This document shows, one piece after another, positions 13,441-58,114 of a DNA stretch of 58,116 nt (position 1 is its first letter; each line of letters starts with the position of its first letter). The notes beneath the pieces are model-generated. The model saw only the letters and a program-made list of their open reading frames with translations, had not been told where the DNA came from and searched no databases. The stretch comes from Candidatus Saccharimonadota bacterium (GTDB taxonomy: Bacteria > Patescibacteriota > Saccharimonadia > Saccharimonadales > Saccharimonadaceae). The DNA lies in the NCBI GenBank assembly GCA_027312225.1, contig DAICXK010000006.1, positions 1 to 58,116 on the forward strand, in the 5' to 3' direction. The translations under genes and the position numbers were made by a program.

Positions 13441-13521
13441 GCATAGCCAAATTGTGTTGTAGCATTCGATGGGACCGTTAATATATAGACTATCGTCGCA
13501 CAGGGGGATATGCTAAGAGTC

Positions 13522-14568
13522 ATGGCGAGAAAAGCTCATGGTTTTACTATTGTTGAGTTGCTCATTGTGATTATAGTTATTGCTATTTTGGCCACAATCT
13601 CTATTGTTGCGTACAACGGAATTCAAAACAGCGCAGCTGAGACAGCACTCAAATCAGACTTGCGCAATGCGGCGACACAGCTTGGCCTCGCATATGCAAA
13701 TGATGGCGTCTACCCTGGCTTGGCTGCCACGTTGTCTAAAAGCGCGGGAACAACCTTTGAATATGATTCCGATGGCACAGGGTACTGTCTTAGCGCGACG
13801 TCAAACCGACCCGGTGTTGGCGATTGGCACATATCAAATACGCTTGGCCTGACAGAAGGAGTATGTGATGGGCATACGGCAGGACTAGGATCGCCTGAGG
13901 GCTCTACTTTTCTTACGACGGGCGGATTTACTGATATAACGCATTCGTATGGCACCGGGGACACGATGCGAGCCAATATCGCATCTGTTCCAACGGGTGC
14001 ATGGATGGTTGTGGTGTTGAGCTATTGGCCGACCGAAAATGCGACTGCTCCGGCAGGATGGACGACACTTGTGGCACGCAAGACGACCAATACAATGCGA
14101 ACAAGTATCTTTGCAAAGATTAAACAGTCTGGCGATGCCGATAATCAGGATTTCCAGGCAGCAGGGACGAACGGTATTAATAATACCAATGGTGCTTTTC
14201 TATGGGGTCGTAACGGAGCCGCGGTGAGTTCATGGACATTGGGCGAGTTCGGAGATAGGGCAAATAATGCAACGCCAACAACCGCGCTCACTCCAACGCT
14301 TACCACGACGGCCGCTAACTCGTTGGTATTGTCGATTGCAACCGAACGAACGAATGCTGACGAGGCCAACTATGTATCGTTGACAGGCGCAACCCCTTGG
14401 GCATGGGTTCCACAGCCTACGGGTGTTCTTGCGAAGAACCAAACGATTACAGTCGGATACAATGAGCAGGCAGCAGTAGGGCAGTCCCAGGCTATGACAG
14501 TAACATATCCAAATTCAATGAACACAAATGCAACTGCCGTGCAGATTGCCATCCCTCCGGCTAATTAA
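13522..14568 (+). CDS. Type IV pilin-like protein with large C-terminal domain
   Basis: The N-terminus is a class III prepilin signal: short basic leader MARKAHG, then FTIVELLIVIIVIAILATIS with the conserved glutamate at +5 and Phe at +1. Prepilin peptidase would cut after the glycine. The pilin neck (YNGIQNSAAETALKSDLRNA) is followed by about 230 residues rich in Thr, Asn, Ala and Gly, which probably form a beta-sandwich adhesin-like domain. At 348 residues it is much larger than a major pilin. TATGCT (13509-13514) ends seven bases before ATG 13522, so the ATG at 13510, which lies inside the -10, is not the start. No other pilus gene is adjacent. Confidence 0.8.
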   Translation: MARKAHGFTIVELLIVIIVIAILATISIVAYNGIQNSAAETALKSDLRNAATQLGLAYANDGVYPGLAATLSKSAGTTFEYDSDGTGYCLSATSNRPGVGDWHISNTLGLTEGVCDGHTAGLGSPEGSTFLTTGGFTDITHSYGTGDTMRANIASVPTGAWMVVVLSYWPTENATAPAGWTTLVARKTTNTMRTSIFAKIKQSGDADNQDFQAAGTNGINNTNGAFLWGRNGAAVSSWTLGEFGDRANNATPTTALTPTLTTTAANSLVLSIATERTNADEANYVSLTGATPWAWVPQPTGVLAKNQTITVGYNEQAAVGQSQAMTVTYPNSMNTNATAVQIAIPPAN

Positions 14569-46968: not shown

Positions 46969-47019
46969 CCTTGCTAATCGGTGGTGACTTTAGTAAAATG
47001 TACAGAGTTACCACCCGAG

Positions 47020-47096
47020 GCTCTTTAGCTCAGTTGGTAGAGCAGAGGCCTGAAGAGCCTTGTGTCCCCAGTTCAAGTCTGGGAGGAGCCACCAGA
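47020..47096 (+). tRNA. tRNA-Phe (GAA), integration site of the downstream element
   Basis: The cloverleaf has acceptor GGCTCTT/AGGAGCC, D arm GCTCAGTTGGTAGAGC and anticodon stem GAGGC/GCCTT with loop CTGAAGA, giving anticodon GAA. The T arm is CCCAG-TTCAAGT-CTGGG, discriminator A, and CCA is encoded. The serine recombinase gene on the other strand ends inside this tRNA, so the 3' part serves as an attachment site. Confidence 0.95.
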
Positions 47097-48763
47097 ATAG
47101 GTAATGAGAGGTCAGCAAGCCCAAAAAGCTTTCTGGCCTCTGTTATTTTTGCGGGATTTTCAGTTCCAGTTTTTATTTCTTCATAGGTTGGAATTCGGTC
47201 GAAAAATACGCCAAAGAACTGTGCTTTTTTGACTGGATCAATCTGTTTTATGAGCACTTGGTCAAGGTTTTCGAGAAAATATTTGACCCTGCCGTATACT
47301 TTATTAAAATCGATTGTATTTGAAGTCTTTTTCTTTTCTTTAGCAACCTTAACTTCACCGATCTTGCGTTCGATATCAATCAAGTCTGCCTCCATATATT
47401 TAATAGCCGTTTCGCTTTCAACCATTTTCAGCTTGCGCACCGTTGCGTCGGCTTCGGCCTCAAGCTCTTTAATTTGTCGGTCAAAATGCGCAACATCCGC
47501 TTCTATGACTTGCCGTCGTCGCTCCCACTCGCCCAAGACAGCATTGGATATCAACTCAATTTGCTCAGGCGCTATCGATAAACACTTCACGAAATTAATT
47601 ACCATATTCTCAAGCTCATCTTTCGGAACACGGAAATAATGCCCCTTATCACAGTGATAACCTGCATACAATTTGCCATTACTGCCTCTACTCGAACTTC
47701 CATACATCGGCTTGCCGCATTTTGAACAACCTATGAATCGCCTAAATGCAAACTCTGGATTTTTAGCGCCCTTGGTTCGTTGATGTAACGGTGCCACTTC
47801 TTTTTCTATCGACACGCTGTCACCGGATTCAACTATTACTACTTTGCCTTGATTTGCGGCGTTAAACGTTTCGATACTCACTAGCCCGTCAAAGACAGTA
47901 CGCACTGGCTTACCGTCAGTCCACTTCTCATTATTCACGCCAGCATATATCGGGTTGCGTAATAGCAGATCCATCGCGTCTTTATCGAGCCGATTGCCGC
48001 CGCGCTTGCCGATAATCTTTGTTCGATCAGCCTTGCTACGAACATAGTGCAGGCGCGTCCTAAATCCCATCAGATTCAGTTCGTCGATTATTTCTTTGTC
48101 GTGCTTGATACCAGTTGCCCTAAGTTCAAATAGCTTCTTTATAAATGGCGCTTCTACTGGGTGTGGCTTTAAGACAACGCGCTTGCCATTACGCGTCTCG
48201 ATTTTTTCGGTCATAAAACCGTACGGCGCCTGCCTCATCCAATAGCCTAAGCGTGTGTAGCGTACCTCAGCGCCGATCATACGGCTTAAGATATCTCGTA
48301 GCTCATCCTTCGCTCGCTCGGCCTCCAGATACTCTGTTTTTTGGCTCGGCGAGTAATTGCTCCAGCTATACTCAACTCCCAAGTGCTCAAGGGTATTAAC
48401 GCGCTGCTGACTGATAACACCGTACTTGTCGATAAGGCTCACCCCGATAGCATCAAGCTGGCGTTTCAGCGGCGCATAGAAATCTGCCCCGCCACGAGTA
48501 AACCGGTCAATTGATTTAATTAAGAATAGCTGGATATTATTTCGCCTGTCGGCGCAGTAGTCTATAGCTTCTTGCATCGGCTGGTTGACCTTGGCGCCTG
48601 ATTCGGCAAAGACAAATACTTTTGTGACTTTAGCGCCTAAACTATCAGCAAGCATCTCGAGCTGCTCGCGCTGAGCTTCTGGCGAATCACCTTGCTGAAA
48701 CTGTCTGTCCGACGACACGCGCACCGCGATAACCGCATTGCGCGTTACGAGTTCTGGGCGCAT
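47030..48763 (-). CDS. Large serine recombinase (integrase)
   Basis: The 577-residue protein has the resolvase catalytic domain at its N-terminus (AVIAVRVSSDRQFQQGDS, catalytic serine probably S17). It also has the recombinase domain (IKKLFELRATGIKHDKEI, LLRNPIYAGVN), a zinc ribbon (FIGCSKCGKPMY with YHC downstream), and a long coiled coil near residues 410-490. The last 20 or so residues (APPRLELGTQGSSGLCS) are encoded by the antisense of tRNA-Phe. The protein end is therefore set by the integration site and could differ after excision. A 47-aa ORF overlaps its start by 19 bases. Confidence 0.93.
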   Translation of the reverse strand: MRPELVTRNAVIAVRVSSDRQFQQGDSPEAQREQLEMLADSLGAKVTKVFVFAESGAKVNQPMQEAIDYCADRRNNIQLFLIKSIDRFTRGGADFYAPLKRQLDAIGVSLIDKYGVISQQRVNTLEHLGVEYSWSNYSPSQKTEYLEAERAKDELRDILSRMIGAEVRYTRLGYWMRQAPYGFMTEKIETRNGKRVVLKPHPVEAPFIKKLFELRATGIKHDKEIIDELNLMGFRTRLHYVRSKADRTKIIGKRGGNRLDKDAMDLLLRNPIYAGVNNEKWTDGKPVRTVFDGLVSIETFNAANQGKVVIVESGDSVSIEKEVAPLHQRTKGAKNPEFAFRRFIGCSKCGKPMYGSSSRGSNGKLYAGYHCDKGHYFRVPKDELENMVINFVKCLSIAPEQIELISNAVLGEWERRRQVIEADVAHFDRQIKELEAEADATVRKLKMVESETAIKYMEADLIDIERKIGEVKVAKEKKKTSNTIDFNKVYGRVKYFLENLDQVLIKQIDPVKKAQFFGVFFDRIPTYEEIKTGTENPAKITEARKLFGLADLSLPILVAPPRLELGTQGSSGLCSTN

Positions 48764-49093: not shown

Positions 49094-49882
49094 ATGAAGC
49101 GATATGTGCCAAAGACTAGGTATACGGTTTCCAGTAATCAAGTGTTGGTTTTGTTGTACATGTTGAAGTATAGGTTTGTTAGTAGTGATGTATTAGCAGA
49201 TTGCATAGGTAAAGATAGATCAACTATATACGAACGGTTAAGTGTATTAGTCGATCAAGGGTATGTCGTGAAGCTATATGACAAGACCTATCGTTTTAGA
49301 CAAAGACCAGTTATCTACTATCTCGCTCCACTCGGTATACGCTACCTAAAACACCGGGGCTACGAGCGCACGCAGCTGCATTACAAAAACAAAACCTTCA
49401 CCGATGAGCAAATAGACGAACAAATGCTGCTCACAAGCCTCGTGCGCAGCATAGGGAAACAATACACCGGCACGCTTAGTTCATATACCAAATACTTCCA
49501 GAATGGCCACGATTTCTGCCTGACGCCGCCGCCCTATGCCAAACTGGTTGGCAAAACAGATGCAATACCAGACTACTTCATGGAGTATTTCCCAGCCTAC
49601 TACGAGAGCTGGAAAATACGTAAGCGAGTCAACCAACACGACACGTACGCTGATGAGCATGATGACGTACTCCACCCACACCTCCTAATGGTTTGCGGTA
49701 ACAACAGTACCGAAAAGCGGGTTGTGCGGTTTACGGCCAATATGCTGCCAAGTTTTGAGATATTCACGACGACAACTGAGCGGTTGTTGAGCGGCGACAA
49801 GAAAGTATGGCTCAAACCGTACGAAGTGGACTGGGATGATTCGTTAGAGTTTCACGGCTTGCCTCTGAGGTTTGAGGACTAA
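49094..49882 (+). CDS. Replication-relaxation family protein
   Basis: The 262-residue protein has an N-terminal winged helix (LVLLYMLKYRFVSSDVLADCIGKDRSTIYERLSVLVDQGYV in parts) followed by IYYLAPLGIRYLKHRGY and an alpha/beta C-terminal domain. This is the layout of the Replic_Relax family, found in plasmids and integrative elements, where it may help start replication or mobilisation. The first 80 codons are T/A-rich (TTG, GTT, TTA, AGT), while the rest use C-ending codons, so the gene looks mosaic. A weak AAGG precedes the ATG. Confidence 0.75.
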   Translation: MKRYVPKTRYTVSSNQVLVLLYMLKYRFVSSDVLADCIGKDRSTIYERLSVLVDQGYVVKLYDKTYRFRQRPVIYYLAPLGIRYLKHRGYERTQLHYKNKTFTDEQIDEQMLLTSLVRSIGKQYTGTLSSYTKYFQNGHDFCLTPPPYAKLVGKTDAIPDYFMEYFPAYYESWKIRKRVNQHDTYADEHDDVLHPHLLMVCGNNSTEKRVVRFTANMLPSFEIFTTTTERLLSGDKKVWLKPYEVDWDDSLEFHGLPLRFED

Positions 49883-49912: not shown

Positions 49913-51451
49913 ATGGCAAGCAAACTCCAAAAACTCGAAGACAGATTATGGCGGGCGGCCGATGAACTCCACGCCAACACCGAACTAAGTTCAAATGAAT
50001 ATTCAGCGCCCGTATTAGGGTTGATCTTCCTTAAGTACGCCGATTACAAGTTCACGGTCCTTACTGAAAAGCTCGGCACAGATAACCCCGACAAGCTAGA
50101 CGTGCAAGCTGAAGGTGTACTTTATTTACCTAAGGAAGCCCGCTACAAGTCACTCATGAACCTACCCGAAGGCTCGGACATCGGCAAAGCCATCAACGAT
50201 GCCATGAAGGCAGTTGAGACCGAGAATGAAGATCTTCGCGGTGTTTTGCCTAAGAGCTACACGATATTTGACAGTCAATCGCTCGTCAACCTTCTGAAAA
50301 ACTTTAATTCCATTGATTTTGCTGAAGGTGACGTATTCGGCAAAATCTATGAGTATTTCCTTGGCAAGTTCGCCATGAAAGAGGGTCAAGGCGGTGGTGA
50401 ATTCTTTACGCCGACTTCCATCGTTAATCTAATCGTTGAGATTATCGAACCGTACAGCGGCAAGATTTTTGATCCAGCTTGTGGTAGCGGCGGTATGTTC
50501 GTACAAAGTGCTAACTTCGTACAGGCACATCACAAGTCTGCAAATACATCTCTTTCTGTTTATGGACAGGAAAAAACGGCCGCCACCGTAAAGCTCGGCA
50601 AGATGAACCTCGCTGTTCACGGTATCTACGGCGATATTCGCCAAGGGAACAGTTATTACGACGATATTCATGATTCCGTTGGCAAGTTTGACTTCGTGAT
50701 GGCAAATCCGCCGTTCAATGTTAGCGGCATCGACAAGGACCGTATCAAAAATGATCCTCGTTATGACTTAGGGGTGCCAAACACAGATAATGGCAACTAC
50801 CTATGGATAGAATCATTTTACCGCGCGCTAAACGACAACGGCCGCGCAGGGTTTGTTATGGCAAACAGCGCAAGCGATGCGCGCAATACTGAGCTGGAAA
50901 TTCGCAAAAAGCTTATAAAGGAAGAGGTTGTCGATGTCATGGTGGCCATTGGACCGAACATGTTCTACACCGTTACGCTACCTTGCCAGCTTTGGTTCTT
51001 AGACAAGCGTAAGAAGAATACTGATCGTGCAGATAAAGTCCTATTTCTCGACGTCCGTCACATTTTTAACCAGATAGACCGCGCACACCGTGAATTCACA
51101 CCACAACAGATTGAATTCATCGCCAATATCGTAAATCTCTATCGCGGAGAAAAGCCAGAATTTCAGCGCGGAAGTGAAGAGCTATTTGCAGAACATGGTT
51201 TGCGGACGGATGAATATCAAGACAGTCTCGGTCTATGTAAAGCTGCGACGATTGATGAAATAGAGAAAAAGGACTGGACTTTAAATCCCGGTCGTTATGT
51301 GGGCGTAAAAGCTGGCATTATTGAGGACATTGATTTTGTGGCTGAGTTTGAAAAGCTCAGAGAAGATATTAGTCTTCTTAATGCAGAGTCTAATGACCTA
51401 GAGGAGCTGATCGAAAATAACGCTCGGGAGATATTGGGTGAAGCTCAGTGA
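49913..51451 (+). CDS. hsdM: Type I restriction-modification system, DNA methyltransferase subunit
   Basis: HsdM methylates adenine N6 within the complex M2S, and with HsdR it protects or cleaves DNA. The 512-residue protein has the N-terminal helical domain ([21 protein letters not shown]), SAM motif [12 protein letters not shown], and catalytic NPPF in [13 protein letters not shown]. The [20 protein letters not shown] motif is typical of the family. Its 3' end overlaps hsdS by 14 bases. Confidence 0.96.
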
Positions 51452-52601
51452 ATTTGTTGACATAAACCCGCGCACCTCACTGCCCAAGGGGACTGAGGCT
51501 GAATTTGTGCCGATGGAAGCACTTAATCCTCAGCGAAGATATGTAAAAACCTATCCCAAAAAGAAATATAGCGGCGGGACAAAATTTATAAATGGCGACA
51601 CTCTATTTGCGCGTATTACACCTTGTTTGGAAAATGGAAAAATCTCACAGTTCATATCTGACAGTAACCTTCCTGCATTTGGCTCTACTGAGTACTGGGT
51701 ATTACGTGCTAAGGAAGGCGTATCAGATCCCTCGTATGTATATTATTTGGCTAAGTCTGAATTATTACGTCGTCCTGCGGAAAAAAGCATGGTCGGCGCT
51801 TCAGGTAGGCAACGTGCTCAAATTGAATCTATTCAAGATATAGATATTGGCAATGTATCACTCGATGAGCAGAAAAAAATTGCCGGTGCCTTAAGTGCTT
51901 ACGATGATTTAATTGAAAATAACTCCAAAAGAATCGAAAAGCTCGAAGCTATGGCGTGCTTGCTCTATCGACACTACTTCGAAGTCCCCGAAGCTACCGA
52001 CTGGGAAGAACTGCCACTGTCAGAGGCGCTACTTGTTCATCGAGGTAAATCATACAAAGGAACTGAGCTGTCGGAAACTCAAGGCCTACCATTCGTTAAC
52101 TTAAAGTGCGTAAACCGTGGCGGTGGATTCAGAAAAGATGGCCTGAAGCTATTCACTGGAGCTTACAAGCAGAACCAACGAGTAGAGCGAGGTGACCTTG
52201 TGATGGCAGTAACGGATATGACACAGGAGCGTATGATTGTTGCGCGAGTAGCACGAGTCCCAAGTCTCGATGGAGGTTCTGGTGTTATCTCTATGGACAT
52301 GGTTAAGCTTGAACCAAAAGAAGGAGTTTCTAAAGACTATCTTTACGCCATGCTACGCTGGTCTCGTTTTTCTGATGAGGTTAAGAATCATGCAAACGGT
52401 GCAAATGTTCTTCATTTACTTCCTGCGCGCATTACAGATTATTCGTTGCCTATGCCACCACAAGCGCTTCAGCGAGGGTTTGCGGAGAAGATCTCGCCCC
52501 TGTTCGACTTAATAGATAATCTTCAGCTCAAAAATGAAGCTTTAGCGAAAGCCCGCGACCTCCTTCTACCTCGTCTCATGTCGGGAGAAATTGATGTCTA
52601 A
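51438..52601 (+). CDS. hsdS: Type I restriction-modification system, specificity subunit
   Basis: The 387-residue protein has two target-recognition domains, each followed by a coiled-coil spacer. Domain 1 is at about residues 1-150 with [16 protein letters not shown] and [33 protein letters not shown] as its helix. Domain 2 is at about 185-360 with LVMAVTDMT and ending [31 protein letters not shown]. The GTG start overlaps hsdM by 14 bases. Both domains are complete, so a bipartite recognition sequence is expected; it cannot be predicted here. Confidence 0.94.
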
Positions 52602-55600
52602 CATGAACCTTAACAGCGAAGACGCTACAACCGAAAAGCCTGCATTAGAATTGCTAACGAATCTTGGCTGGGAAGTATTTGATGCATTTGCGGAAACTGA
52701 CGGCGCGTTGCCTGAATTAACAGGTCGCGAACGCTTGGACGAAGTAGTGCTAATCAAATACCTGCGTCCCGCGCTCGAAAAACTCAACCCTACCGCCCCG
52801 CGTGAAGCTATCGATGCAACAATTACCGAGTTGCAGCGTGATCGTTCAACTATGACGCCGGTCATGGCCAATCAAGAGATATACAAGCTTATCAAAGACG
52901 GCTATAAAACTAGTTTCCTCAATGATCGAGGAGAATCCGAAGACGTCACGGTTTACATTGTTGACCTAATGAATCCAACCAACAATACATTTACGGCTAT
53001 CAGCCAATTTTGGATATTAGGCAGGCTGCACAAACGCCGACCAGACATCATAGGCTTTGTAAACGGCCTACCGCTTGTCCACATCGAACTAAAGGCGCCT
53101 GGAGAAAAAGCAAGTGACGCATATAGGGACAATCTGCGTGATTACCGCGACACTATTCCACAACTCTTTTGGTATAACCAGTTCATCATCATTAGCAATG
53201 GTACTGATTCCCGGGTAGGCAGCATGACGGCGCCGCTCGAACATTTTGCAGAGTGGAAACGCATCAACGACGAAGGCGAAGTAGGTGTCGTAAGTCTCGA
53301 TACCGCTATCCGCGCAACCTGTGCGCCTGAGCGTGCATTGGATATCATTGAAAACTTCGTTTTGTTTACTGTCGGCGATGACGGCAAAACGGTAAAGATC
53401 GTAGCTAAGAACCACCAGTATATTGGGGTTAACAATGCCGTAGAGAGTTTGCGTAGTGGAAATGATGGAAGGCTAGGCGTATTCTGGCATACCCAGGGTA
53501 GCGGAAAAAGCTTTTCGATGGTATTTTTTGCCCAAAAGGTAATGCGAAAGGTGCCGGGTAATTGGACGTTCGTTGTTATCACTGATCGGCATGACTTAGA
53601 TACGCAAATCTACAAGAATTTCGTGCGCTCCGGTGCGGTTACGGAACCCGAAGAGAGCGTGCGCGCTAGCGATAGCACTGACCTACGACAAAAACTCAAA
53701 GATGATCACCGCTATGTATTCACGTTGATTCATAAATTCCAAACTAATGATGGCAGCGAAATGCCTGTCGTCTCAAATCGTGACAATATCATTGTTATGA
53801 CCGATGAAGCGCACAGGACGCAATACGCCACGCTTGCGCTCAATATGCGCAATGCCTTACCAAACGCACGATTCATCGGCTTTACGGGCACGCCACTTAT
53901 AGCTGGCGCAAAGGAAAGGACCAAGGAAGTGTTTGGTGGTTATATCAGTAAATACAATTTCAAGGACGCGGTGGATGACGGCGCAACAGTACCTCTTTTC
54001 TATGAAAATCGCATACCCGAACTGCAATTGACCAATGATGATTTTGACGACGACCTAAACAAAATACTTGAGGCTGCCGAACTAGACGAAGAACAGGAGA
54101 AGCTACTAGAACGCCAGTTTGCAAGACAATACCACCTCGTAACGCGCGAAGACCGCCTAGAACGCGTGGCGAGAGATATAGTTGAGCATTTCATGAACCG
54201 CGGTTACCAGGGTAAAGCCATGGTTGTATCGATTGATAAAGTAACAGCCGTGCGTACCTATGACAAGGTGAAAAAGTACTGGCAAGTAGCTATGGACTCT
54301 ATCCAGCTGCAGCTTGATGCTAATCCAGAGCCAGATGTTCGGGAGCAGTTGGAAGAACAACTGGCCTATATGCAATCTAGCGATATGGCAGTTGTCGTCA
54401 GCCAATCCCAGAATGAGGTTGATGATTTTCGCCAGAAAGGCTTGGATATTTGGCCGCACCGTGAGCGCATGGTCAAAGAAGACCTTGAAGAGAAATTCAA
54501 AAAACCAGACGACCCACTCCGAATAGTGTTTGTGTGTGCGATGTGGATTACAGGGTTTGACGCCCAATCGATTAGTACTATTTATCTTGATAAGCCTATG
54601 CGCGGGCATACTTTGATGCAAACGATAGCTCGAGCGAACCGAGTATTTAAGGGTAAGTCCAACGGTTTAATCGTTGACTATATTGGTGTATTCCGCGATC
54701 TACAAAAGGCCCTGTCTATTTATGGCGAGGGTGCCGACGGTGAGATGCCGGTTAAAGATAAAAAAGAACTAAAGTTTGAGCTAGAAACCGTTTGGGCCGA
54801 CCTTGATGTGTATATTATGCAAAAGGCTGGCCATTCCTTAGCTGAAGTTGAAGAACAACAGGGTTTTGACCGTGTCGCAACCATTGCGAGATTGGTTGAT
54901 ATTATTGTTTCGTCAGAAGAGACTAAAAAGGAATTTGGCAGTCTGGCATATTCGTTCGACAAATTGTTTAAAGCGATCCTACCTGATACAGACGGTAATA
55001 CATACCTACCAACCTACCAATTGCTCCGAACCATTCAAGGACAAATCCGTTCGCTAAAGGGCGAAACCACGATTGACCACGTTACGAAAAGCATCGAGGA
55101 ACTCCTGGATGAGTCTATAGAGGCGGGGAGTTATACAATCAAAGAACTGCAGGCCGATGACATTATTGACCTATCGCAAGTTGACTTTGAAAAATTACAG
55201 CAGAAATTTGGCATCAACAGCAAGAACATCGCGACTGAAAGGCTGAAGAACGAAACCGATAAGAGACTTAAAAAGCTGCTTGACCTTAACAAAACGCGCA
55301 TCAAATTGGCTGAAAAGTTCCAACACCTGATTGACGAATACAATGCAGGCTCTAAAAACATCGAGGAGTTCTTTAACGAGTTGATGGAATTTGCCCACGA
55401 GCTGGACGAAGAGGAGCAGCGCGCCGTACGTGAAGAGATGAGCGAAGAAGAGTTGGTGATCTTTGATTTGATTGTTCGTCCAGGCCCCGAGCTTAACAAG
55501 ACCGAAGTGGGCCAAGTCAAAAAAGCTGCCCGTGATTTGCTTTTAAGCTTGAAACAGCAAAAACTAGTGCTTGACTGGAAGAAGAGCCAGCAAAACCGCG

Positions 55601-55749
55601 CTATTGTACAACGCACTATCCGCGACATCTTGGATGATGAGCTACCCGAAAGCTACGACGACAACTGGCAACGTAAAAAACTCGGTGTACTTTATGAGCA
55701 TATCTATGAGAGCTATGAAAACGCTAATATGAATGTTTACGCAAATTAG
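52594..55749 (+). CDS. hsdR: Type I restriction enzyme, R subunit
   Basis: The 1051-residue motor-nuclease has the PD-(D/E)xK nuclease core near residues 155-170 (GLPLVHIELKAPG). Two helicase lobes follow, with Walker A HTQGSGKSFSMVFF, DEAH box MTDEAHRTQ, FIGFTGTPL and motif VI region TIARANRVFKGK. The C-terminal part is helical and binds the M2S core. All key residues are intact, so the system should be active. ATG 52594 overlaps the hsdS stop by eight bases, with GGGAG upstream. Confidence 0.96.
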   Translation: MSNMNLNSEDATTEKPALELLTNLGWEVFDAFAETDGALPELTGRERLDEVVLIKYLRPALEKLNPTAPREAIDATITELQRDRSTMTPVMANQEIYKLIKDGYKTSFLNDRGESEDVTVYIVDLMNPTNNTFTAISQFWILGRLHKRRPDIIGFVNGLPLVHIELKAPGEKASDAYRDNLRDYRDTIPQLFWYNQFIIISNGTDSRVGSMTAPLEHFAEWKRINDEGEVGVVSLDTAIRATCAPERALDIIENFVLFTVGDDGKTVKIVAKNHQYIGVNNAVESLRSGNDGRLGVFWHTQGSGKSFSMVFFAQKVMRKVPGNWTFVVITDRHDLDTQIYKNFVRSGAVTEPEESVRASDSTDLRQKLKDDHRYVFTLIHKFQTNDGSEMPVVSNRDNIIVMTDEAHRTQYATLALNMRNALPNARFIGFTGTPLIAGAKERTKEVFGGYISKYNFKDAVDDGATVPLFYENRIPELQLTNDDFDDDLNKILEAAELDEEQEKLLERQFARQYHLVTREDRLERVARDIVEHFMNRGYQGKAMVVSIDKVTAVRTYDKVKKYWQVAMDSIQLQLDANPEPDVREQLEEQLAYMQSSDMAVVVSQSQNEVDDFRQKGLDIWPHRERMVKEDLEEKFKKPDDPLRIVFVCAMWITGFDAQSISTIYLDKPMRGHTLMQTIARANRVFKGKSNGLIVDYIGVFRDLQKALSIYGEGADGEMPVKDKKELKFELETVWADLDVYIMQKAGHSLAEVEEQQGFDRVATIARLVDIIVSSEETKKEFGSLAYSFDKLFKAILPDTDGNTYLPTYQLLRTIQGQIRSLKGETTIDHVTKSIEELLDESIEAGSYTIKELQADDIIDLSQVDFEKLQQKFGINSKNIATERLKNETDKRLKKLLDLNKTRIKLAEKFQHLIDEYNAGSKNIEEFFNELMEFAHELDEEEQRAVREEMSEEELVIFDLIVRPGPELNKTEVGQVKKAARDLLLSLKQQKLVLDWKKSQQNRAIVQRTIRDILDDELPESYDDNWQRKKLGVLYEHIYESYENANMNVYAN

Positions 55750-56587: not shown

Positions 56588-56661
56588 GGGGCTGTAGTTT
56601 AACGGTAAAACAATTCGCTGACATTGAAATATCGCAGGTTCGACTCCCGCCAGCTCCACCA
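56588..56661 (+). tRNA. Diverged tRNA-Val (GAC)
   Basis: A full cloverleaf can be drawn. The acceptor is GGGGCTG/CAGCTCC with one G-U, and the D stem is GTTT/AAAC with GG in the loop. The anticodon loop CTGACAT gives GAC, the T loop is TTCGACT, discriminator A, and CCA is encoded. Conserved bases are in place, but the anticodon stem has an A-A mismatch at its base and a G-U at the top, and the T stem has an A-C mismatch. It lies in the mobile element, so it is either an element-borne tRNA or a decaying attachment-site copy. Confidence 0.75.
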
Positions 56662-57094: not shown

Positions 57095-57307
57095 ATGCCA
57101 TCTAGATCTACAATTTATATAGGCAACCGGCTCCGCGCAGTGCGCATAAACTTAAATCTCACACAAGCTGAGGTTGCCATGCGCGCCGACACAAACACGA
57201 ATTACTACGCCAAACTAGAACGCGGTGAGGCTATGCCTTCCCTTAAGATGCTCGAAAAAGTTATCAAAGCACTAGGCGTTAAATCTTCCGACGTTTTGCC
57301 GTTCTAA
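57095..57307 (+). CDS. XRE-family helix-turn-helix regulator, 70 aa
   Basis: This is a single Cro/C1-type domain: GNRLRAVRINLNLTQAEVAMRADTNTNYYAKLERGEAMPSLKMLEKVIKALGV in consecutive helices. The turn is TQAEVAMRAD and the recognition helix is NTNYYAKLERG. There is no ligand or protease domain, so it acts as a small repressor. It could control its own promoter and the restriction-modification or recombinase genes of the element. Its 3' end overlaps the convergent membrane protein gene by four bases. Confidence 0.9.
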   Translation: MPSRSTIYIGNRLRAVRINLNLTQAEVAMRADTNTNYYAKLERGEAMPSLKMLEKVIKALGVKSSDVLPF

Positions 57308-57921
57308 GTACTCAACATTTTTGTAAGCATACTCGCAAGATAAGTTGCAAGCGTTGCGCCCACTATAAGCCATCCCACTAGCAGTCTATTTCTTTTTGTT
57401 ATGATCATATATCCTATACTGCCAAGTATTACAACTACGAGAACGACTACGCTGTTCGTAAAACCTACGATTAGGCCAGCTAATGCGAGCAACTTGACGG
57501 TGCCGAACCCAATATACGCACCTCTAGAAACGATATATACAACAAGTGATGACACGAAAAGCAACGCTAATCCTTGCAACGACGACCAAAGCACGCTTTC
57601 GTTGATTAGTGATTGTAGATACACATGCAAAATCGCTAATGGCAATAAAAATCTATACACGACCATGTCGGGCAATAAACCCGTGCGACCGTTAATCCTC
57701 GCTAGAAAAATTAGTACAAAAACAATCAACAACCAAACAATATAGGAGGCAACCCTTAGCGCATCCCATGGTTGCATCCACAGCGCAAAAGAGGCAAATG
57801 CAACAATAAAAAATAATAATTCAGGCCATATCAATAGCTTATTCTGCACAACCCTTAAAAAGGGTACATCATCTAATATAAAGTCCTGATTCGGACTTAT
57901 GTTAGTTCTAGTCATTATCAA
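57304..57921 (-). CDS. A24 prepilin-peptidase homologue lacking both catalytic Asp
   Basis: The 205-residue protein has about seven hydrophobic helices and the two landmark loops of A24 peptidases. The first, normally D-x-R-T-x-x-x-P-D, reads NGRTGLLPDMVV, with the first Asp replaced by Asn. The second, normally GxGDxKLL, reads IGFGTVKLLALAGL, with Asp replaced by Thr. Flanking residues are well conserved, so it belongs to the family but is probably not a peptidase. It overlaps the upstream 68-aa gene by 14 bases and converges on the XRE gene. Confidence 0.75.
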   Translation of the reverse strand: MIMTRTNISPNQDFILDDVPFLRVVQNKLLIWPELLFFIVAFASFALWMQPWDALRVASYIVWLLIVFVLIFLARINGRTGLLPDMVVYRFLLPLAILHVYLQSLINESVLWSSLQGLALLFVSSLVVYIVSRGAYIGFGTVKLLALAGLIVGFTNSVVVLVVVILGSIGYMIITKRNRLLVGWLIVGATLATYLASMLTKMLST

Positions 57922-58114
57922 TCCTATTTTTCACCGTTTGCTCATATAACTCCTCTAAGGCGTCAGGGTTTTCAACGGCTATCTTATGGATTGCAGTTTT
58001 TGTGGATTCAAGCATAAACAATGCAAATTCTCGGGTTGCATTCTCAGGGTGAAAAATCTCAAGATATCGCACAACTGCATCGACATCTTCATCTGTAATT
58101 ACATAATCACTCAT
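57908..58114 (-). CDS. Small acidic helical protein, 68 aa
   Basis: I do not recognise this protein. It is acidic and helical (DEDVDAVVRYLEIFHPENAT, ALFMLESTKTAIHKIAVENP), with no signal or membrane segment. Its end overlaps the start of the A24-like gene by 14 bases, so both are probably translated from one mRNA. The upstream region lies outside the window. Confidence 0.6.
   Translation of the reverse strand: MSDYVITDEDVDAVVRYLEIFHPENATREFALFMLESTKTAIHKIAVENPDALEELYEQTVKNRIDND

Follow-up and report, generated by a model that had tools for sequence, protein, structure and literature searches.

A truncated prepilin-peptidase homologue lacking both catalytic aspartates in a tRNA-Phe mobile island of a Saccharibacterial genome

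FlaK and TadV/CpaA are active peptidases with two catalytic aspartates, and their genes are found in archaellum or Tad operons. Among the rhomboid proteases, iRhoms and derlins are dead eukaryotic members whose function is proven. In the A24 family to which the prepilin peptidases PilD/GspO belong (MEROPS A24; PF01478 plus PF06750), the two aspartates are described as universally conserved and critical for cleavage (PMC10191384), and the A24_N domain is the zinc-dependent methylase part of PilD (PMC3584216). In the literature that we searched, we found no report of a dead A24 family member.

We analysed a window of 58,116 nucleotides (positions 1 to 58,116 of contig DAICXK010000006.1, here C19) from a Candidatus Saccharimonadota bacterium and found that it encodes a protein, P0001, that has the core fold, the helix order and the GxG-VKLL and LLPD loops in common with PilD/GspO. 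Unlike PilD/GspO, P0001 has no A24_N, both aspartates are replaced, there is no PFGP motif, and the gene sits in a mobile island instead of a pilus operon. A peptidase core without the methylase domain is also what FlaK and TadV/CpaA have. P0001 may resemble iRhoms and derlins in principle, as an inactive membrane protease perhaps holding membrane clients, although the folds are unrelated and the function of P0001 is one that we infer. The gene and its two catalytic positions are as follows.

57304 to 57915, minus strand: P0001, A24-like protein of 203 aa, catalytic core only, with N75 and T139 in place of the two aspartates
57691 to 57693, minus strand: Asn75 codon AAC, at the site of the first catalytic Asp (D in 71/71 PilDs)
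57499 to 57501, minus strand: Thr139 codon ACC, at the site of the GxGD Asp (D in 71/71 PilDs)

The frame ends with a stop at 57304-57306 on the minus strand and more likely starts at the ATG at 57915 than at a TTG upstream at 57921; the chance of a 203-codon open frame at the composition of the window is about 2.5e-6. P0001 aligns with positions 1-102 of the 104 positions of PF01478 at 20.3 bits (E 8e-4), which falls below the curated cut-off of 26.5 bits, and it matches full-length PilDs with E values down to 1e-9 and 3e-11. Both the GxGxVKLL and the LLPD motifs are retained, in agreement with an earlier reading made from the sequence alone (hereafter the sequence-only reading), which had called the A24 loops well kept. 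It is well supported that P0001 represents an inactive A24 (GxGD) prepilin-peptidase core. Searches of phages, plasmids and viral contigs returned no homologues of P0001, a search of the GTDB contig collection with the P0001 sequence alone returned no match, and NCBIfam, PHROGs and PADLOC gave nothing meaningful.

To locate the catalytic positions, we aligned P0001 with 71 distinct Saccharibacterial PilDs. The two catalytic columns are D in all 71 PilDs and are N75 and T139 in P0001, exactly the replacement by Asn and Thr that had been claimed. Since a change from Asp to Thr requires two base changes, a single read error does not explain T139. The aspartates of P0001 are at residues 11, 15, 16, 51 and 83, so nothing beyond residue 83 is able to replace the second-site (GxGD) Asp. 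The sequence-only reading had named an alignment that places other aspartates in the active site as what would speak against it; we looked for one, and the absence of any Asp past residue 83 rules out such a takeover. It is therefore extremely improbable that P0001 retains peptidase activity by means of unusual catalytic residues: the retained Asp83 of LLPD does lie near the first site in sequence, but the second site has no candidate and cleavage is described as depending critically on both aspartates (PMC10191384). P0001 also lacks A24_N (TM1 plus a zinc-binding cysteine loop with four Cys), and the PFGP motif near the C-terminus is lost. With A24_N absent and both aspartates gone, both known activities of PilD, peptidase and methylase, should be gone from P0001, judging from its sequence.

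The AlphaFold model of P0001 has a pLDDT of 88.3 and a pTM of 0.81 (input alignment of 28 sequences), with helices at residues 30-45, 52-78, 83-104, 107-130, 137-150, 152-173 and 180-202. As a control, we modelled a canonical PilD core (pLDDT 94.6), which has helices at 3-20, 28-54, 59-80, 84-107, 114-127, 130-153 and 166-189. The seven helices come in the same order in the two models, with lengths within two residues of each other. N75 stands at residue 24 of helix 2 (27 residues), where D51 lies in the control, and T139 is residue 3 of helix 5, where D116 lies; D51 and D116 are invariant in the control's own alignment. A lack of structural match to A24 had also been named as evidence against the sequence-only reading, and what we found was a predicted fold that agrees with the control helix for helix. 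The model supports the compatibility of P0001 with the A24 core fold; as a prediction partly steered by the supplied alignment, it is not independent proof. The Foldseek search that had been proposed was run with the model and gave no match for P0001 in the PDB; this null is uninformative because the canonical control itself reaches only FlaK (E 0.83, probability 0.80), which leaves the search powerless. Foldseek of the P0001 model against viral models found nothing.

P0001 lies in an inserted island at a tRNA gene, whose features in the window are listed here.

47019 to 47094, plus strand: tRNA-Phe, the insertion site; synteny with sister genome G045 stops at 47094
47030 to 48763, minus strand: large serine recombinase (PF00239 and PF07508 above cut-off), its 3' end reading into tRNA-Phe
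49094 to 49882, plus strand: Replication-relaxation/TrmB-type HTH protein, weak, just under cut-offs; homologue in an element of genome G179 at E 7e-92
49913 to 55749, plus strand: type I restriction-modification HsdM, HsdS and HsdR, island cargo
57095 to 57307, plus strand: small HTH (Xre/HTH_3) gene, PF01381 at 52.9 bits, convergent, other border of the cargo slot described below
57908 to 58114, minus strand: P0002, 68-aa acidic protein, companion of a PLD nuclease, with homologues in other elements

The corresponding tRNA-Phe locus is present in the sister genome with an empty site, followed by sequence that is found on contig C3 of the host. Because synteny ends at 47094, all sequence from 47095 up to the end of the contig (58482) is an insertion relative to G045. 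The order along the island is serine recombinase, Replication-relaxation-type protein, type I restriction-modification, tRNA-Val, HTH gene and P0001. The island thus shows the features of an integrative element, a site-specific recombinase, insertion at a tRNA gene and an empty site in a relative, which bears out the claim that P0001 is part of a mobile element. The recombinase gene overlaps tRNA-Phe by about 65 nt on the opposite strand, so the target tRNA provides the 3' end of that gene. The tRNA-Val (GAC) inside the island is at 56588-56661. We found no tra genes in the assembled part of the island, up to the contig end; sibling elements carry coupling and transfer genes.

P0001 starts on the stop of P0002, with an overlap of 8 nt (ATGACTAG, 57908-57915). 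The proposal that the two are co-translated fits this overlap. A role for P0002 as the dedicated partner of P0001 was rejected: P0002 goes with the PLD nuclease, and many such elements have no A24-like gene. Homologues of P0002, which gave no convincing Pfam, NCBIfam or PADLOC match, are present in 32 of 394 genomes of the family, and in most elements examined the homologue follows a PLD-family nuclease; genes for HTH, TraD, VirB2-like and Replic_Relax proteins and for serine recombinases lie nearby. A fragment of a PLD-family nuclease is likewise found upstream of P0002, across a 10-N scaffold gap (58117-58126 of contig C19). The corresponding genes are only a few bases apart in genome G098, which makes a merely nominal gap probable here. 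In at least eight sibling elements, the P0002 homologue and a homologue of the convergent HTH gene abut or nearly do so, and in the window P0001 sits between the two. The same place is occupied elsewhere by an Mrr-type nuclease (PF04471, 94 bits, with a hydrophobic stretch ahead), a 198-aa protein, a 155-aa protein on the reverse strand, or two genes. From these variable contents, we read the spot as a cargo slot and P0002 as backbone. The conserved pair of PLD nuclease and ~70-aa protein, with a convergent HTH gene after it, is the hallmark of a family of integrative/conjugative elements in Saccharibacteria that have a variable cargo slot (57908-58482 of C19; L301-L320).

We searched several hundred Saccharibacterial genomes and the GTDB contig collection for relatives, with protein or profile. 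The matches were PilDs some 260-340 aa long and, as the only further truncated proteins, P0003 (genome G511) and P0004 (genome G456); two short PilD matches with both aspartates were set aside, as contig ends cut them. P0003 has 209 aa with the motifs NARTRLLPN and GGGD, P0004 has 216 aa with TNMKYLLLPD and GGGD, and both score above the 26.5-bit cut-off of PF01478 (35.5 and 47.9 bits). Like P0001, they are about 210 aa long, have no A24_N, carry Asn for the first Asp and are accessory to a separate full-length PilD with both aspartates in the same genome. Unlike P0001, they keep the second Asp (GGGD). The suggested search for the N/T pair among relatives thus recovered the first-site Asn and, at the second site, an intact Asp. 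Among the A24 matches in which both columns are aligned, 157 are D/D, and first-site Asn occurs only in P0001, P0003 and P0004; the few other odd letters or gaps in the catalytic columns are partial or misplaced alignments. Truncation and loss of the first Asp are therefore strongly associated (3/3 truncated as compared to 0/157), although these rows are not independent. The P0003 gene is in a cluster at L165 9550-15949 that also encodes an AAA ATPase, an Hsp70-like protein, a protein of 626 aa and a small protein that may have an Excalibur-like end.

P0004, like P0001, is beside mobile-element genes: it is directly downstream of a TraD-like gene and is followed by Replic_Relax and serine recombinase genes. 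This position, together with the TraD and VirB2-like genes of related elements, would fit a protein that scaffolds or helps to assemble membrane proteins of the element itself (VirB2-like subunits, coupling protein), instead of one aimed at host type IV pili. We consider such a role distinctly unlikely for P0001, as most such elements have no A24-like gene, which is thus unneeded for transfer, and the assembled part of the island in the window shows no tra genes.

In a tree, P0003 and P0004 group together with support of 100/99, and the branch that unites P0001 with them has an SH-aLRT of 98-99 and a bootstrap of 30. The P0001 branch is by far the longest (5.6-7.6 changes per site), and a tree test does not reject placing P0001 with the PilDs of its own genus (p 0.57). 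The P0001 core scores 31.9 against the short pair, while PilD pairs score 28.5 ± 8.2 and 43 of 120 do as well; a profile comparison aligns P0001 with P0003 and P0004 including part of the N-terminal tail. On these comparisons, a shared origin of the three truncated proteins is possible, the alternative being that they lost this Asp independently.

The long branch points to relaxed constraint, and the main rival explanation is that P0001 is a decaying remnant, a prepilin peptidase that was acquired by the element, truncated and left to drift without function. The loss of both aspartates and of PFGP fits this, as do the weak codon-usage signal of P0001 and its occurrence as a singleton; each of the three known truncated A24 members is a singleton. 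However, a stop would be expected in P0001 with 95% chance after about 0.13 neutral substitutions per site (~81 substitutions), and all 203 codons are open. The intact frame and the kept GxGxVKLL and LLPD loops argue against long drift, and a pLDDT of 88, a start that overlaps the stop of P0002 and two other truncated forms that likewise have no first Asp and have open frames also count against decay. We regard a remnant as unlikely, though as a serious contender.

The host of P0001 carries pilus genes. The host genome (760 kb, ~97% complete) has two PilC loci and a match to N_methyl at 13510-14565 (27.2 bits, cut-off 21.2), so that the presence of class III prepilins, which the sequence-only reading had stated, holds. 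In its pilus genes, the host is similar to N. lyticus TM7x, which has a two-pilus arrangement and for which a single pilD is listed, and in Saccharibacteria pili serve host binding and twitching, TM7x being naturally competent (PMC12206443). The resident PilD, on contig C21 in a pilus operon, has A24_N and both aspartates (TDFKW and GLGD) and is the sole match to PF06750 in its own genome. As this PilD is separate and keeps both aspartates, P0001 is an extra gene; a first family search had suggested a genome without another prepilin peptidase, which the divergent C21 PilD refutes.

Taken together, these data partly support the sequence-only reading: its A24 homology, its loss of aspartates, its mobile island and its prepilin-bearing host stand, and the host also has a pilus locus. 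We tentatively favour, at somewhat short of an even chance, that P0001 is a pseudoprotease of the mobile element, one that binds helices of the pilin type and modulates the pilus of the host, a function that we infer. P0001 would keep the pocket in the membrane into which class III prepilins insert their N-terminal helix and would bind prepilins or PilD without cutting; this binding would lower or bias the pilus and DNA-uptake machinery of the carrier, and the element would gain either by excluding rivals or by protection against removal via transformation. Conflict between mobile elements and transformation has been documented in other bacteria (PMC11472951). Tuning of the pilus is likelier than complete blocking because TM7x is competent and its T4P-1 pilins resisted deletion (PMC12206443), and full blocking would probably kill the carrier. 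More doubtful is the wider proposal that mobile elements carry a family of catalytically dead prepilin peptidases, which would keep prepilins or PilD bound but uncut and thereby tune the type IV pili and DNA uptake of their ultrasmall episymbiont hosts, or silence them, for the benefit of the element. If true, this would open a direct way to study how mobile DNA manipulates the pili and competence of episymbionts, in which pili drive host attachment, and GxGD membrane proteases would gain a pseudoenzyme counterpart to iRhoms.

P0001 could also act on PilD through mixed complexes and not through prepilins. The two share a fold and the resident PilD keeps both aspartates, but in a pairwise comparison P0001 is only ~25% identical to the resident PilD (E 0.35), and we judge this mode of blocking very improbable. 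That pairwise E value, and the 4 bits that a profile of the own-genus PilDs gives P0001 (mean of 28.5 for other PilD pairs), led us to reject the idea that P0001 was recently copied from the resident PilD, although the tree test leaves room for a grouping with the own-genus PilDs. In this genus, the resident PilDs (L072 1405-2349 and L063 5179-6072) are themselves without the zinc-binding cysteines while keeping both aspartates, and they have LWT instead of the usual LPD or LPN after the first catalytic Asp.
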